Positions 3,929-11,636 are shown, numbered from the stretch's first letter. The stretch is 32,210 bases of DNA from Chloroflexota bacterium (GCA_010092855.1 JAADYV010000408.1:1-32210); one strand, 5' to 3'. Notes: generated from the sequence alone by a model not told the origin. Numbers and translations are program-made.

Positions 3929-5170
3929 ATGGCAACAACCTCACCTGCGGAGTCGGTGCCCGCTCCACCACGAGTCTCACTCTTCGATAGGCAATGGTGG
4001 TCTACGTTTCAAGGCGTTTTGATTCCCTTGTTGTCGGTATTGACGGCCATCATCGTCGGATCGATTCTGATTCTGCTGAACGGGCGCGATCCAATCACGG
4101 CCTTTGAAGAACTCATAAGAGGGGCCATGTTAGAGCCGCGCGGGGTGCGGCTGACGTTGGTCAAGATGACGCCGCTGGTCTTCTCTGGGCTGGCGGTGGC
4201 GTTTGCGCTCAAATGTGGGCTGTTCAACATCGGGGTCCAGGGTCAGTTGATTCTGGGATCGGTAGCCGCGGCCTGGATTGGATTTGCAGTAGAAGGGCTG
4301 CCACCCGTGCTGCATGTGTCGCTGGCGGTTATTGTTGCCGGGCTGGCGGGGGCGTTATGGGGGGCTATCCCCGGCGTGCTGAAAGCCTATGCCGACGCGC
4401 ACGAAGTGATCACCACCATCATGCTGAACGCGATTGCGATTCAGTTGGCAAGCTGGATGATTTCCCTGGGCAGCGAGGATGGCACGCTCAAACCCGGGCC
4501 ACTGGCGGCCAAAGACGTGCAGGACGCCATTCCCAGAACCCCAGAAATCCTGGACAGCGCCCGGTTACCCATGATCTACAAAATTCCGTTCGGGGTGCAG
4601 ATGCACGCTGGTGTGTTTTTGGCGATTATTGCCACTGTGGTGGTGATGTTTTTGCTCACCCGGACGACGTTTGGCTTCCAACTGCGCATGGTGGGCCACA
4701 ACCCAGCGGCGGCCAGGTATGCGGGCGTGAATGTCAAGCGTATGATGGTGCTCAGCATGGTGATTGCCGGATCGATGGGCGGCCTGGCGGGTGGCATGCA
4801 GACGTTGGGCGTCAACTTTGGCTATGAAGGCAACCAGAGCCTGGGCCTGGGGTTCGACGGCATTACCGTTTCGTTTTTGGCCGCGAACAATCCCCTTGGC
4901 ATCAATTTCTCGGCATTCCTGTTTGGGGCTATGGACGCTGGGGCGGGCAGTATGCAGAAAGAAGCCAAGGTGTCGCCAGAATTGCTGCAGGTGATCCAGG
5001 CCCTGGTTTTGATGTTTGTCGCCGCCGACCAGATCATTCGCCGCCTGTACCGGTTACGCACGGCAGACGAGCGACGCCGGCAACGCCTGGCGCGCCAACA
5101 CCGGGCAATTCGCCAACAGCAGGCCGGCCAGAGTAGTGAGTCCAGAGCGCGTGAAGAGGATGAACGATGA
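3929..5170 (+). CDS. ABC transporter permease, nucleoside/BMP-type (NupP/YufP-like)
   Basis: TPLVFSGLAVAFALKCGLFNIGVQGQLILG and AYADAHEVITTIMLNAIA are typical. ATG at 3929, preceded by AAAGGA, is preferred to the 3854 start in the ORF track. Confidence 0.88.
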   Translation: MATTSPAESVPAPPRVSLFDRQWWSTFQGVLIPLLSVLTAIIVGSILILLNGRDPITAFEELIRGAMLEPRGVRLTLVKMTPLVFSGLAVAFALKCGLFNIGVQGQLILGSVAAAWIGFAVEGLPPVLHVSLAVIVAGLAGALWGAIPGVLKAYADAHEVITTIMLNAIAIQLASWMISLGSEDGTLKPGPLAAKDVQDAIPRTPEILDSARLPMIYKIPFGVQMHAGVFLAIIATVVVMFLLTRTTFGFQLRMVGHNPAAARYAGVNVKRMMVLSMVIAGSMGGLAGGMQTLGVNFGYEGNQSLGLGFDGITVSFLAANNPLGINFSAFLFGAMDAGAGSMQKEAKVSPELLQVIQALVLMFVAADQIIRRLYRLRTADERRRQRLARQHRAIRQQQAGQSSESRAREEDER

Positions 5171-6180
5171 CAGAAGTTGATATTGGTGTCGCCCTGATTG
5201 CGACGATTGGTATCGGTATCCGTTTTTCGGTGCCGATTGCGTTAGGTGCGCTCAGCGGTATCTTTAGCGAGCGGTCTGGGGTGGTCAACATCGGCATCGA
5301 AGGCATGATGCTGATGGCCGCTTTCGTAGGTTTCATGGCCAATGTGACCCTGGCCCAACCGGATAATGCTGCCGTATTGCAGCATTCGTCGGTGCGCTTT
5401 GCACTGGCTATCGGGGCCGCGCTGTTGGCCGGTGGCTGTATGGGCCTGCTGCATGGCGTGCTGTCGATTCAATATAAGATCGACCAGATCATCAGTGGGA
5501 CCGTGATCAACATCCTGGCGCTGGGCTTGACCGGGTATTTTTACGACCCCGAGGCCACACTGCCGCAGGACGTCCAACCGCTGTTGCAGAAGTTCAAGAA
5601 CCCGTTTCCAGAGAGTTCGTCTGCCACACGGGAGCTGTTCCCCAACTTCACACTTAGTTTTCCAAATGATATTGGGCAAATCATTTTCGAAAAAGACCTT
5701 ATTACCTACCTGACCCTGGGCTTGATCGTTTTTGTGGGATGGGCGTTGTATAACACGACCTGGGGCTTGCGGACGCGCGCCATCGGCGAGAATCCGCGTG
5801 CTGCCGATACACTGGGGATCAACGTCTATCGCCTGCAATACACCAACCTGTTTATTGGGGGCATGATTGCAGGACTGGCCGGGGCCTTCCTGACGCTGGC
5901 GGCGGTCAGCCAATTTGAGCGCGGCATGACGACCGGGCGCGGCTTTATTGCGCTGGCCGTGATGATCTTTGGTAACTGGCGGCCTTCGGGGGCGGTGATG
6001 GGGGCGCTGCTGTTCGGGATGGCGCTGGCGCTACAAAACACGCTGCAGGGCTTTGGCGTCAATGTTCCACACCAGTTTGTGGGTATGTTGCCCTACGTGC
6101 TGACTATCGTAGTGCTGGCCGGGTTTGTGGGGCGCGTCCAACCGCCTGCGCACGCTGGCCGGGCCTATGAGCAGGAGTAG
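5167..6180 (+). CDS. ABC transporter permease, nucleoside/BMP-type (NupQ/YufQ-like)
   Basis: GALSGIFSERSGVVNIGIEGMMLMAAF, SIQYKIDQIISGTVINILALGLTGYF. Start overlaps the upstream stop (ATGA). Confidence 0.88.
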   Translation: MTEVDIGVALIATIGIGIRFSVPIALGALSGIFSERSGVVNIGIEGMMLMAAFVGFMANVTLAQPDNAAVLQHSSVRFALAIGAALLAGGCMGLLHGVLSIQYKIDQIISGTVINILALGLTGYFYDPEATLPQDVQPLLQKFKNPFPESSSATRELFPNFTLSFPNDIGQIIFEKDLITYLTLGLIVFVGWALYNTTWGLRTRAIGENPRAADTLGINVYRLQYTNLFIGGMIAGLAGAFLTLAAVSQFERGMTTGRGFIALAVMIFGNWRPSGAVMGALLFGMALALQNTLQGFGVNVPHQFVGMLPYVLTIVVLAGFVGRVQPPAHAGRAYEQE

Positions 6181-6185
6181 GCGCG

Positions 6186-9100
6186 ATGGCTGATCAATAC
6201 ACCAACCATTCCGGCCAAAACGCAGACCAGGCACCGGAGCGCGAGGTCGTGCTGGAAGTCGAAGGCCTGACCAAACGCTTCCCCGGCGTGCTGGCCAACA
6301 ACAATGTGAGCATGAAGCTGCACAAGGGTGAAATTCTGGCTCTGCTGGGCGAAAACGGAGCGGGCAAAAGCACGCTCATGAACATGATCTATGGACTGTA
6401 TCGCCCGGACGAAGGCGACATTTACCTCAAGGGGCAGCACGTCAACTTCACCAGCCCGCGCGAGGCCATCCACAGCGGGATCGGCATGGTACACCAGCAC
6501 TTCCAACTGGTCAACGTGATGACCGTGACGGACAACGTAGTGCTGGGCGAAGAAGCCGGAGTCGCCTACCAGGGCGGACAGCAGCGCCTTTTCCAATGGG
6601 TGTTACGCAATCTCCCCAGCCTGGCGATCCTCGCGGGGATTCTGTTGATTGGGGTCGTGCTGACGCTGTGGAACGAGGCGCTATATGTGCTGGGTGATGC
6701 TGCCGTAGACCTGTATGGATACCGGGGTAGCAAATCGACCGCCAGCGACTGGGAAATCGTGTGGGAACACTGGCAGGTCTTCCTGGCGTGCATGGTGGTG
6801 GGACCGCTAACAGCGTTTGCGGTACGGTTTCCCCCCTTGGCGCGTATGCTGTGGGGGCTTACGTGGCGGATTGGCTTGATCGCGGCGGCAGTGGTGATCG
6901 CCGGGCAGGTCGAGACGGTCACTGAGGTGGGCCTGATGAATCTCGGTTTGCGGCACAAGGTCGAGATCGTGAGCGACCCCAGTCCCAAAACCACGGATGA
7001 GGGATACGCGGTCAAGGCCGGGTATACGGGCCGGGGCCGGATCAACTTCAACTGGGACAGCGTGGAGCGCAAGACGGCAGAAGAGGAAGGCAGCCGGATT
7101 GAGCGCCTGGTCCGCACGGCGAAAGAGGAAATGGAACCCTACCGCGACGACGGTATTCCCGGATGGCTGCTGGATGCAATTGACGACTGGCCGCCGGTTG
7201 CCTACGCGCTGACGGTGGCGCTACTGCTGTTGGCGTTTGGCTGGCACGGGATGACGCGCTGGCGGGGAACGGCAGCGTTTCCTCGACAATTCGAGCAGCG
7301 CGATGTGGTACTGCTGGGTGGTTTGCTGGCGATCTATTCGCTGCTGGCGTGGAACAATCTGGACTCGGTTGGTACGCCAGCGCGCGTGGGGCTGCTGGCA
7401 GTCGTGACTGGCGGGATTGGTCTGGCCGGGTGGTTGACCTACCAACAGCGCAGAGCCACTCCCGATTATATCGGCCAACCGTCGCCGCTGGACACTACAA
7501 TTGACTTGATGCTCGATCTGGTGCGCACGGGGCTGCAGGTGGGCAATCTGCGGCTGGCGCGCAAACGGGTACGCGAACTCTCCCAGCGGTATGGTCTGGA
7601 AGTTGATCCGGATGCGGTAATCGAGAAACTGCCGGTGGGCACCCAGCAGCGCGTCGAAATCATTAAAGCGCTCTACCGCCAGGCCGACATTTTGATCCTG
7701 GACGAGCCGACTGCGGTCCTCACGCCGCAAGAAGGGCGCGAGTTGTTCAAGATCATGCGTGAACTGGCGTCGCAGGGCGTCTCGATCATCTTCATCACCC
7801 ACAAGCTAAAAGAGGTGTTCGAAGTCGCGACCGATATTGTCGTGATGCGGCACGGGCGCGTGGTGGGGCAAACCACACCCGACCAGGCTACCGAAACCTC
7901 GCTGGCGGCCATGATGGTGGGCCGCGAAGTGATCCTCCAGGTCGAAAAAGAACCAGCCCAGCCAACCCACCCCGTGTTGGAAGTGGGCGGCCTGGACGCC
8001 TTTAATGACCGGGGCGCACAGGCATTGCACGCGGTGAGTTTTGATGTGCGCGCGGGGGAAGTGCTGGGCGTGGCCGGGGTGCAGGGCAATGGCCAGACGG
8101 AACTGGTCGAGGTGCTAACCGGGCTGCGCGAGGCCACCGGTGGCTCGGTGCGCCTGTTGGGCAAGGAACTACAGCCCGACGTACAGCCGGATGGCGGTTG
8201 GCGGGCGCGGATCGGCGCTTTCCTGATCGACCTGGTCGTGTTAGCGTTTATGGCGTACCTTGTCACTGGCCTGGCCGAATACTTTGACAGCGATGTGTTT
8301 GGTGGTTCGCGCGTGCAATCCACTGCCACTGCTGTTGGGCTGATACTCTTGACTGCCGGGGCCTACTTCTTCTCTGGCTGGAGCATCAGCGGCAGCACGT
8401 TGGGCATGTCGTTCTTCGAACTCGAAGTCGTTGACCAGCACGATAAAAAGCCGCGCTTGCTGCGTATCAACCCGCGTTATGTGTGGGGTACGATCATCGG
8501 TGTGCCCGTGCTGCTGCTTTTCCTGGCGATAGTGGTTTCGCAGTCCGCCGCCGAAATGGTATGGCAGGGCATCGTGATACTGCTGCTCGCCAGCCTGGTA
8601 ATCGCAGCCGCAGGGATGGTTATCGTGCAGGCCCAATTGATGCTGCGCCGCAGCCTGGGTTGGTTTAAAACGGTTTTTGGGCTGCGCGTGATCCGGCACG
8701 AACGCATCACGCCGCGCAGCATCAAAAACCTGGGGGCCGGGCACGTCCCCGAAGACCGGCGGCGGCACGGCATGGTGTCGGTCTATTCAGTGGCCGACAA
8801 CCTGGTGCTCAACGACTTCTACGAGCGGCCCTATGCCTCGGCTCCCAACGGAACAGAAGCGCCTGGCGCGCTGCTGCGCTATCTGGTGTTGATGGGCACC
8901 ATTGTGGCCGGGTTGACGGCGCTGGCGGTAGGGGCATGGGATGCCTTCCTCTGGGAAACCGTATTGGATGCTTACTATATCCCGGAGATTTTCCGGGGCG
9001 TACCCTACGATTCCATCAAACTCGACGAGTACGCTGGCTACGGGGATGCCATGCAGTGGCCGTATGTGATCATGGTCGCCGGGCTGGTGGGGATGGAACT

Positions 9101-9659
9101 GGTGTTTGGCATCGTCGCGCATCTGCTGACGGTGCGTGTGTTGGGCTTGTCGCCGGTGGAAGCTGCCGTCCAAACGGTTGGCCAGCGGCTGCGCCAACAG
9201 GTCTGGTCGCTGCTGGGCCGGGATGGCCAGGCACCAGAACCGCGCGGCGGGCTGCTGCGCAATGATGCCGCAATTGAACACAACGCTGCCCGGCTGATCA
9301 AAGAGTTCGATATCCGCACGCCGACCACCGGTACCAGCGGCGGCAGTCTTTCCGGTGGGAACCAGCAGAAGATGATCGTGGCGCGCGAGTTCAGCCGCAA
9401 GCCGCGCCTGTTGATCGCGGCCCAACCTACGCGCGGGATCGACGTGGGATCGATTGAGTTCATCCACCAGCAGATCATCGAGCAGCGCGATGCTGGCGCA
9501 GCGGTGCTGCTGGTCTCGGCAGAGTTGGACGAAATCATGGCGCTCGCCGACCGGATCGCGGTCATGTACAAGGGCGAGATCATCGACACACTGCCCGCTG
9601 CCGAAGCCACGCGCGAACGACTCGGTCTGTTGATGGCGGGGATCGAAAATAGCGCCTAA
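6186..9659 (+). CDS. Nucleoside-type ABC transporter ATPase (twin NBD, NupO/YufO-like) with three in-frame transmembrane inserts, one an RDD domain
   Basis: 1157 aa. NBD1: GENGAGKST, MVHQHF, LPVGTQQR, ILILDEPTAVLTP. NBD2: GVQGNGQTEL, GHVPEDRRRHGM, LSGGNQQK, LIAAQPTRGIDVG. Interrupted at about aa 124-453, 663-840 and 889-1020 by hydrophobic segments. Confidence 0.92.
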   Translation: MADQYTNHSGQNADQAPEREVVLEVEGLTKRFPGVLANNNVSMKLHKGEILALLGENGAGKSTLMNMIYGLYRPDEGDIYLKGQHVNFTSPREAIHSGIGMVHQHFQLVNVMTVTDNVVLGEEAGVAYQGGQQRLFQWVLRNLPSLAILAGILLIGVVLTLWNEALYVLGDAAVDLYGYRGSKSTASDWEIVWEHWQVFLACMVVGPLTAFAVRFPPLARMLWGLTWRIGLIAAAVVIAGQVETVTEVGLMNLGLRHKVEIVSDPSPKTTDEGYAVKAGYTGRGRINFNWDSVERKTAEEEGSRIERLVRTAKEEMEPYRDDGIPGWLLDAIDDWPPVAYALTVALLLLAFGWHGMTRWRGTAAFPRQFEQRDVVLLGGLLAIYSLLAWNNLDSVGTPARVGLLAVVTGGIGLAGWLTYQQRRATPDYIGQPSPLDTTIDLMLDLVRTGLQVGNLRLARKRVRELSQRYGLEVDPDAVIEKLPVGTQQRVEIIKALYRQADILILDEPTAVLTPQEGRELFKIMRELASQGVSIIFITHKLKEVFEVATDIVVMRHGRVVGQTTPDQATETSLAAMMVGREVILQVEKEPAQPTHPVLEVGGLDAFNDRGAQALHAVSFDVRAGEVLGVAGVQGNGQTELVEVLTGLREATGGSVRLLGKELQPDVQPDGGWRARIGAFLIDLVVLAFMAYLVTGLAEYFDSDVFGGSRVQSTATAVGLILLTAGAYFFSGWSISGSTLGMSFFELEVVDQHDKKPRLLRINPRYVWGTIIGVPVLLLFLAIVVSQSAAEMVWQGIVILLLASLVIAAAGMVIVQAQLMLRRSLGWFKTVFGLRVIRHERITPRSIKNLGAGHVPEDRRRHGMVSVYSVADNLVLNDFYERPYASAPNGTEAPGALLRYLVLMGTIVAGLTALAVGAWDAFLWETVLDAYYIPEIFRGVPYDSIKLDEYAGYGDAMQWPYVIMVAGLVGMELVFGIVAHLLTVRVLGLSPVEAAVQTVGQRLRQQVWSLLGRDGQAPEPRGGLLRNDAAIEHNAARLIKEFDIRTPTTGTSGGSLSGGNQQKMIVAREFSRKPRLLIAAQPTRGIDVGSIEFIHQQIIEQRDAGAAVLLVSAELDEIMALADRIAVMYKGEIIDTLPAAEATRERLGLLMAGIENSA
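6555..7544 (+). other. Insert 1 in NBD1 helical subdomain: about 6 TM helices plus a ~95-aa TM3-TM4 loop
   Basis: Lies between DNVVLGEE and NLRLARKRVRELSQRYGLEVDPDA, which are nearly contiguous in standard NupO-type ATPases. Hydrophobic runs include SLAILAGILLIGVVLTLW, VFLACMVVGPLTAFAV, GLIAAAVVIAG, ALTVALLLLAFGW, VVLLGGLLAIYSLLAW, VGLLAVVTGGIGLAGW. Confidence 0.85.
8172..8705 (+). other. Insert 2 in NBD2: RDD-family membrane domain (about 4 TM helices)
   Basis: Lies between GSVRLLGKEL and ITPRSIKNLGAGHVPEDR. GGWRARIGAFLIDLVVLAF, SGSTLGMSFFELEVVDQHDKKPRLLRI and RRSLGWFKTVFGLRVIRHE match RDD N-, mid- and C-terminal patterns. Confidence 0.85.
8850..9245 (+). other. Insert 3 in NBD2 helical subdomain: about 2 TM helices with a ~40-aa loop
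   Basis: Lies between DNLVLNDFYERPYASAPN and GGLLRNDAAIEHNAARLIKEFDIRTP. TM runs LLRYLVLMGTIVAGLTALAVGAW and YVIMVAGLVGMELVFGIVAHLLTV. Confidence 0.85.
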
Positions 9660-9749: not shown

Positions 9750-11636
9750 ATGCGTAAGACCACTACTGTTGCCATCACCGTGCTGATCCTGTTCAGTTTG
9801 CTGCCCGTGCACGGCAGCGCGTGGGCCAGCCCACCGGGGCAAGACGGCTGTGACCCGAATGTAGATTACTATACGGTTGGGTTCGATGCCTTCGATGCTG
9901 AAGACTATGCCGCTGCCGTTGATGCTTTTTCGTGCGTCATTGTTTTTGACCCGGCGGATGCCTTCGCCTATTCGCTGCGCGGCGACGCATACCTGGCGTT
10001 GGACCAGCTTGATGCAGCGCTGCAAGACTTCGACACGGCGCTGGAACTCGACCCCACTGACGCCTACACCTACGTTTCGCGCGGACTGGTCTACCAGTTG
10101 CTCGAAGACGACGAAGCCGCCATCCGCGATTTTTCGACGGCGCTCGAACTCGATCCGTCTGACCCGTTTGCCTATACCTCGCGCGGCTTGTCGTACCAAT
10201 ACTTGGAAGATGACGCTGCCGCGGTGGCTGACTTCGAGACGGCGCTGGCGCTGGACCCCACCGATCCGTTCACGCTGTATGCGTTGGGAATCTCGTACCA
10301 ATACCTGGAACAGCATACCGCTGCGATTGCTGCATTCTCAGACGCCATTGCGCTGGATGCCACCGATCCCTACCCGGTTCTGGGGCGCGCCTTCTCGTAC
10401 CTGGCGTTGAACGATCTCCCCAGCGCTCAACCCGACCTGGAAACAGCAGATCGGTTATCTCAGCCTGACGATCCTTTCCTCCTGACCGATCTGGGGCTGG
10501 GCTGGCTGCTGGTGGGCGAGTATGACGCGGCGATTGAGGCGTTTACGCTAGCGCTTGACCTGCAGCCCGATGACCCGGATATACTGCTGCTCCGGGCGGA
10601 AGCTTTCGAGTACGCGGGGCTGTTTGACCTTGCCCTGGCCGATGTGGAGGCGGCGTTGGCCCTGCTGCCGGATGATGCCTACACCTACCTGATTCTCGGC
10701 TACATCTTCCAGGCGCTTGAAGAGGATGAAGCCGCGATTGACGCCTTCACGCAGGCTGTCGCGCTTGACCCGGATGACCCGGATGCCTACGCGGGACGTG
10801 GGCTGTCGTACCAATACCTGGCCGATGACGAAGCGGCGCTCGCGGACTTCGATGCGGCCATAACGCTGGCCCCGGATGACGCTTACCTGTATGCGTGGCG
10901 CGGGGAATCGTACCTGTACCTGGAGCAGGACGTCCTGGCGCTCGCCGACTTCGACCGTGCGCTGGCGCTTGATCCGGCGCTGAGCGACGCCTACTATCTG
11001 CGCGGGGTGACCTACCAGTTTCTGGGGCAGGATGGCGCGGCGGTGGCAGACTTTTCGCGCGCGCTCGAATTCGACCCGGAGAATGCCTATGCCTACGTGG
11101 ATCGCGGTATTTCGCGCTTTTTCCTGGAGGATGACGAAGGCGCGCTGTCCGACCTCACCCGCGCCATCGACCTGAATCCAGACGACGAATACCTGTTGGC
11201 GGACGCTTACTTCTTCCGGGGGACGGCGCGTATGTTCCTGGCCGATTACGAAGGGGCTGTGACCGACCTGACGAGCAGCCTCGAACTGCTGCCGGACGAT
11301 CCCATCACCTACGACTTCCGGGGCGTTGCATATGCCGCGCTGGGGCAGGATGACCTGGCCGAGGCGGACTTCCAGCAGGCCGAAAGCCTGTTGGCGGAAA
11401 CCGGGCAGAGCGCACTGCCGAAAACGATCCTGGCCCGGCCACCCCAGCAAGACGGTATCAGCCGCTCGCTGGCACGCACCCGGACGACGCAAACGTCACG
11501 CGGCGCAACCACGCGCGGGACCGCCCGGAGCAGCCGGACCACATCGGCGCGCAGTTCGTCGTGGGCTACCAGCACCACCGCGCGCGTTTCACGCCAGCCG
11601 CGCACCAGCATCTTGACCACACGCAGCGGAAGCTAA
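9750..11636 (+). CDS. Secreted TPR-repeat protein (about 15 TPRs)
   Basis: Signal-peptide-like N-terminus (VAITVLILFSLLPVHGSAWA); tandem ~34-aa units such as DAYTYVSRGLVYQLLEDDEAAIRDFSTALELDP; abrupt R/S/T-rich tail. Confidence 0.88.
   Translation: MRKTTTVAITVLILFSLLPVHGSAWASPPGQDGCDPNVDYYTVGFDAFDAEDYAAAVDAFSCVIVFDPADAFAYSLRGDAYLALDQLDAALQDFDTALELDPTDAYTYVSRGLVYQLLEDDEAAIRDFSTALELDPSDPFAYTSRGLSYQYLEDDAAAVADFETALALDPTDPFTLYALGISYQYLEQHTAAIAAFSDAIALDATDPYPVLGRAFSYLALNDLPSAQPDLETADRLSQPDDPFLLTDLGLGWLLVGEYDAAIEAFTLALDLQPDDPDILLLRAEAFEYAGLFDLALADVEAALALLPDDAYTYLILGYIFQALEEDEAAIDAFTQAVALDPDDPDAYAGRGLSYQYLADDEAALADFDAAITLAPDDAYLYAWRGESYLYLEQDVLALADFDRALALDPALSDAYYLRGVTYQFLGQDGAAVADFSRALEFDPENAYAYVDRGISRFFLEDDEGALSDLTRAIDLNPDDEYLLADAYFFRGTARMFLADYEGAVTDLTSSLELLPDDPITYDFRGVAYAALGQDDLAEADFQQAESLLAETGQSALPKTILARPPQQDGISRSLARTRTTQTSRGATTRGTARSSRTTSARSSSWATSTTARVSRQPRTSILTTRSGS

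Follow-up and report, generated by a model that had tools for sequence, protein, structure and literature searches.

Our analysis points, with good but not conclusive support, to an ABC importer of the Bmp type whose ATPase subunit became membrane-integral through successive in-frame insertions. The gene lies at 6186..9659 (+) in the window (the whole stretch of Chloroflexota DNA analyzed here, 32,210 nucleotides) and encodes a twin-NBD ABC ATPase of 1157 aa with three membrane inserts, an assignment supported by Pfam, alignments and relatives. The sequence shows that its catalytic scaffold is intact and its three-loop insertion architecture is inherited. Production and membrane insertion of the protein as predicted, the driving of the two adjacent permeases, and the anchoring or organizing of the complex are inferred.

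A twin-NBD scaffold with one active ATP site

The gene is one uninterrupted open reading frame of 1157 codons. Pfam recognizes ABC_tran in four stretches of the product and an RDD domain at residues 671-782. Without the inserts, the scaffold comprises ~510 aa with two NBDs in one chain, and the sequence and its alignments place Walker A, Q-loop, signature and Walker B in the correct order. The N-terminal part of NBD1 (residues 20-123, 6243..6554, +; alignments A1/A2) contains the Walker A motif GENGAGKST (55-63) and the Q-loop region (102-107), and is modeled by AlphaFold2 with a pLDDT mostly >90. The remaining parts were assigned from alignments and the AlphaFold2 model. Within 7542..8171 (+) lie both the C-terminal part of NBD1, with a degenerate signature (PVGTQQR), the Walker B motif ILILDEPT and the H-loop TH539, and the N-terminal part of NBD2, with a degenerate Walker A (GNGQ, 634-637). 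The middle part of NBD2, which reads PR..HVPEDRRRHGMV...SVADNLVLNDFYERPYA, is located at 8709..8837 (+), and the C-terminal part, with the signature LSGGNQQK (1055-1062) and a degenerate Walker B (LLIAAQPTRG), at 9246..9656 (+).

The original prediction held that all expected motifs are present in order. The scaffold and the order stand, but the second ATP site is degenerate, so that the claim is true only in the asymmetric sense of the family: one site is active and one is degenerate (GNGQ and AAQPT in NBD2, PVGxQQ in NBD1). GNGQ and PTRG are invariant across the 57-row alignment A2, and the degenerate second site is common to the window ATPase and its insert-free relatives; identity to the insert-free homologues in this alignment is 45-64%. 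The closest curated model, NF047930 (putative B6 ABC ATPase), gives 438.8 bits against a cut-off of 670, which is thus not met, and no other equivalog cut-off is met either. A proposed assignment to the NupO/YufO type therefore holds for the twin-NBD Bmp/sugar scaffold, but narrow membership is not shown. The ATPases of this class are also defined by being soluble subunits, and with 12 predicted TM segments the window ATPase does not meet this criterion. Because of these segments we class it, on its predicted features, as a variant of the twin-NBD Bmp/sugar class and not as an ordinary member: the defining scaffold is met and solubility is not, and neither ATP hydrolysis nor import has been shown.

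Three in-frame inserts carry the predicted membrane segments

We mapped the inserts against an insert-free ATPase of the same order (L024 in genome G021; 516 aa, 72% identical). The alignment places extra sequence at three sites (residues ~124-452, ~663-841 and ~885-1020), corresponding to in-frame inserts of ~329, ~179 and ~136 aa, or ~644 aa together, close to the ~640 aa first estimated. A home-made hydrophobicity scan (Hessa-type scale, not DeepTMHMM) finds 6, 4 and 2 TM segments in inserts 1, 2 and 3 and none elsewhere in the chain. The expected layout of twin NBDs, three insertion sites and 6+4+2 TM segments is thus confirmed by the alignment and the scan. As controls, the scan counts 8 segments in one permease and 9 in the other, and none of the 56 insert-free homologues has a TM-like 19-mer. 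The helices of the AlphaFold2 model coincide with the TM segments of the scan, at low confidence.

Insert 1 (residues ~124-452, 6555..7541, +; alignment, hydrophobicity scan and AlphaFold2) contains six TM segments (145-163, 195-213, 222-240, 338-356, 374-392 and 401-419) and a predicted outside domain of ~95 aa between the third and the fourth. It enters the helical subdomain of NBD1 directly after the Q-loop and a helix that terminates in NVVLGEE, at a site that an alignment to ABCA4 identifies as a length-variable loop in other NBDs. Insert 3 (residues ~885-1020, 8838..9245, +; alignment, hydrophobicity scan and profile search) contains two TM segments (899-917 and 960-978) and occupies the counterpart of this site in NBD2. 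The helical subdomain and the Q-loop line the cleft where the coupling helix of the permease docks, and we therefore infer that inserts 1 and 3 exit the NBDs near the membrane. Neither insert matches a Pfam family, a transporter family, or anything consistent among known families. Insert 1 has invariant motifs at both ends (RxxWGxxWR at one, TWRG at the other), and insert 3 has invariant prolines and one near-invariant Trp. The possibility that the two inserts are copies of each other was rejected, as their profiles show no similarity.

Insert 2 (residues ~663-841, 8172..8708, +; Pfam and scan) is an RDD domain with hydrophobic segments at 679-697, 714-732, 766-784 and 796-814. It matches PF06271 at 1e-10 (42.5 bits, gathering cut-off 24.1), and follows the strand ending LLGKEL and precedes the conserved PR...HVPEDR stretch of NBD2. 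This identity had not been foreseen; the same holds for the binding proteins with tandem Bmp domains and for the ATPase gene lying apart from the permease genes in family f8, both described below. All 10 relatives tested have an RDD match (n = 10/10, E up to 0.1). In the window, R675 and D682 of the RDD signature are kept and the second Asp is replaced by Ala (724); in the RDD inserts of the relatives the Arg and the first Asp are invariant and the second Asp is present in most. The window insert is ~30 aa longer than those of the relatives. A sequence search for RDD relatives with a solved structure gave none.

Loop charges agree with the positive-inside rule, as had been proposed by eye. Pooled over relatives with even TM counts, the K/R density per residue of the near-membrane loops is 0.159 on the side predicted to be cytosolic versus 0.058 outside; insert 1 shows this bias strongly, insert 3 only weakly. 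An even number of TM segments, which would return every NBD fragment to the cytosol and had been claimed for each insert, is evident in most relatives for both insert 1 and insert 3; in insert 2, however, most relatives score 2 or 3 segments in the hydrophobicity scan, so that even parity is not shown for the RDD insert.

In the AlphaFold2 model, 461 residues have a pLDDT of at least 90 and both NBD cores are formed around the inserts, which speaks against the concern that NBD1 and NBD2 could not fold in their presence. The alignment used for the model contained 56 insert-free homologues and no insert-bearing relatives; as a consequence, the folds of the inserts are of low confidence and their packing is not firm. 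The best PDB matches to the model found by Foldseek are the twin-NBD subunits OppD/DppD, 8j5q and 8wdb.

Inserts were gained in an inferred order within one bacterial order

A profile search identified insert 3 in 40 of the 154 genomes of the order, in 22 of its 61 genera and always as one copy. The bearers fall into four families (f1, f4, f7 and f8), and in a class-wide sample of 396 genomes positives occur only within this order. Insert 1 was found by profile search only in f1, f7 and f8, and insert 2 in every tested member of f1 and in the f8 genera g32 and g44. Family f5 is free of inserts, f4 carries insert 3, f7 carries inserts 1 and 3, and f1 and f8 carry all three, with the exception of the f8 genus g19, which is without insert 2. 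Homologues with zero, one, two and three inserts therefore exist and, as anticipated, order the acquisitions.

Two trees built from NBD columns only, with the inserts left out, nest f5, f4, f7 and f1+f8 in an ordered series. The node uniting all bearers of insert 3 is moderately supported (88/67) and the inner nodes strongly (100/99 and 100/98). A single change on the tree suffices for insert 3, and likewise for insert 1; the RDD domain requires two, most simply a putative single gain followed by a single loss in g19, which lies inside f8. As reconstructed from the tree, insert 3 was gained first, insert 1 second and insert 2 (RDD) last, and insert 1 grew further. The TM counts for inserts 1/2/3 are 0/0/2 in f4, 2/0/2 in f7, mostly 6/2-4/2 in f1, 10/0/2 in g19 of f8 and 12-13/3/4 in g32 of f8, insert 1 having expanded to 6-13 segments in f1+f8.

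The insert-1 and insert-3 profiles match one copy per genome, only inside the ATPase (the copy in genome G006 is split across two contigs). No free-standing donor was identified for either insert, and the RDD profile gave only two weak extra matches. Four genomes of insert-bearing families have no insert-3 match (G007 and G011 of f1, G053 and G061 of f8), and whether this reflects loss or incomplete assemblies is unresolved; G053 has an insert-free f2-type paralogue. Among the matches listed, the closest insert-free relatives with a name are Chloroflexota/Anaerolineales MAGs.

Purifying selection on the inserts

All three inserts evolve under purifying selection. In comparisons of close relatives their dN/dS is ~0.08-0.29 in f1 and 0.05-0.23 in g19 of f8, and these low values indicate that the inserts are maintained as protein. 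The values are generally above those of the NBD cores (mostly 0-0.13), so that constraint on the inserts is looser.

This selection weighs against a reading in which the inserts are tolerated passengers that accumulated in length-variable near-membrane loops by a neutral ratchet, with no role of their own. The invariant motifs of insert 1 and the conserved Pro and Trp residues of insert 3 also weigh against it, as does the retention of insert 3 in four of four descendant families, with few genomes lacking a match. Passengers nevertheless remain possible, if doubtful: the inserts evolve faster than the NBD cores, their sizes vary widely from one family to the next, g19 has apparently lost the RDD insert, and we saw no shortening of the permeases in compensation.

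Proposed arrangement in the membrane

If the ATPase subunit did become an integral membrane protein by stepwise insertion, the reading we favor, NBD1 and NBD2 would dock beneath the permease pair as in other importers, and the single active ATP site would be formed by Walker A/B of NBD1 and the LSGGN motif of NBD2. The inserted helices would exit the NBDs beside the docking surface of the TMDs and pack in the bilayer, probably beside the permeases, an arrangement that is inferred and not modeled. The ATPase would thereby be permanently anchored and assembled with its permeases, which is an inference only, and the domains that inserts 1 and 3 expose on the outside may contact the binding protein.

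The inserts could instead form a second functional membrane module, for ion coupling or regulation by the RDD domain or for gating of the substrate, and not an anchor. We consider this unlikely, even though PMC7568657 discusses a Halobacillus RDD protein that is reported to be a Na+(Li+,K+)/H+ antiporter, since the RDD domain of the window is without the second signature Asp, g19 retains the gene without an RDD domain, and neither insert 1 nor insert 3 has a match among transporter families. Its other support is the occurrence of RDD in every f1 member tested as well as in g32 and g44 of f8, and the predicted position of the insert 1 outside domain on the binding-protein side. We hold it to be quite improbable that the inserted helices (6-13, the RDD domain and 2-4) together make up a second, ATPase-borne membrane module around the permeases that is active in transport, for example in ion coupling or gating. 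If true, such a module would constitute a new structural class of importer, with the NBD subunit and a membrane belt in one chain.

The window ATPase shares its scaffold, motifs and degenerate second site with the Bmp/sugar-type twin-NBD ATPases (NupO, RbsA, NF047930), but these are soluble proteins of ~500-550 aa with no TM-like segment, whereas 12 predicted TM helices lie inside the NBDs of the window ATPase. The OppD/DppD subunits (8j5q, 8wdb), which are the closest fold matches to the model, are likewise soluble and without membrane inserts. Rad50/SMC heads are ABC ATPases with internal coiled-coil insertions, which are soluble. In UvrA, an element is inserted in ABC signature domain II (PMC7835731). 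Like the window ATPase, UvrA and the Rad50/SMC heads accommodate big internal insertions without loss of the ABC fold, but their inserts are soluble zinc modules, DNA-binding domains and coiled coils, in contrast to the polytopic membrane segments found here. Insert 2 shares PF06271 with the RDD family (B. subtilis SppI, the Halobacillus RDD protein, Mas1B of mce operons); the RDD proteins discussed in the literature consulted (PMC7568657 among the sources) are free-standing or terminal membrane domains, whereas the RDD domain of the window lies inside an ABC NBD core.

We found no published description of an RDD domain with an ABC ATPase, or of membrane segments inside an NBD, in the open-access literature; as the search was limited to this literature, it is weak evidence for novelty. 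To our knowledge, ABC NBDs are treated in textbooks as compact, soluble, modular ATPases, with membrane domains placed before or after them and never inside. Here, up to ~20 predicted helices are located within the two NBDs of one chain. Together with living families at every step from zero to three inserts, this makes two general questions testable: the tolerance of the ATPase fold for, and its co-translational folding around, polytopic membrane insertions, and the route from soluble to integral membrane subunits. The findings suggest that, in this Chloroflexota-like group, a supposedly compact soluble enzyme can turn into an integral membrane protein.

Permeases, binding proteins and gene neighborhood

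The two conventional permeases noted upstream in the original prediction are supported by Pfam and are the likely partner TMDs of the ATPase. Permease 1 (BPD_transp_2, 3929..5170, +; PF02653, 3.9e-44) has its most probable start at the ATG of position 3929, with AAAGGA just before it. Permease 2 (BPD_transp_2, 5167..6180, +; PF02653, 8.7e-45) overlaps permease 1 by 4 bases, and the ATPase start is 5 bases downstream of it. Families f1, f4 and f5 and most f7 loci have permease orthologues ahead of the ATPase gene; permease 1 was not found at two f7 loci (L126 and L127). The possibility that the inserts compensate for lost permease helices was rejected, as the lengths of the permeases are undiminished.

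In f8 (L118-L122 and L163), the ATPase gene lies apart from both permease genes, by ~48 kb in genomes G024 and G035. That the gene no longer adjoins the permeases in the very family where the inserts are largest might indicate that the ATPase has departed from the importer and serves another membrane task. We judge this very unlikely: the gene is still part of the permease operon in f1, f4 and f7, and f8 retains the permease pair (56-61% identity), which in the genome looked at (G024) has no ATPase gene as a neighbor. A chimera of an ATPase and a membrane protein, created by assembly or gene calling, is practically ruled out even though the window comes from a fragmented assembly, in which it is one of 662 contigs, since the relatives refute it with the same in-frame architecture in many independent genomes, including an assembly of 5 contigs, and with in-frame homology across all three junctions; the original prediction had named such an artefact as one possible refutation. 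An intein or intron was set aside without a search, given the membrane and RDD nature of the inserts and the conserved frame.

The transporter of which we propose the ATPase became a membrane-integral subunit is most likely a Bmp-type importer, with its substrate unassigned, because insert-free f2/f3 relatives encode the ATPase, the permeases and Bmp proteins at one locus and because conserved tandem-Bmp proteins are encoded elsewhere in f1, f4 and f8 genomes. The operon of the insert bearers showed no gene for a Bmp binding protein. The window genome (87% complete) has only two Bmp genes, both beside other ATPase genes, and a binding protein of its own was not found for the window transporter.

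Binding proteins with two Bmp domains are located at L157:2503-5919 (G003), L160:1900-3900 and L223:1137-2045. One protein of 1139+ aa combines two Bmp domains with long Glu/Ala-rich linkers and the apparent start of an amino-acid-type binding protein. Downstream of the ATPase gene, the window encodes a 628-aa protein with 13 TPR repeats (9750-11636), followed by a parvulin-type PPIase; in the relatives examined, the TPR and PPIase genes are not beside the ATPase gene. At two insert-free f2-type loci (G018:C120 and G053:C20), the permease-1 match is contained in overlong open frames of 766 and 782 aa, which suggests a permease fusion.
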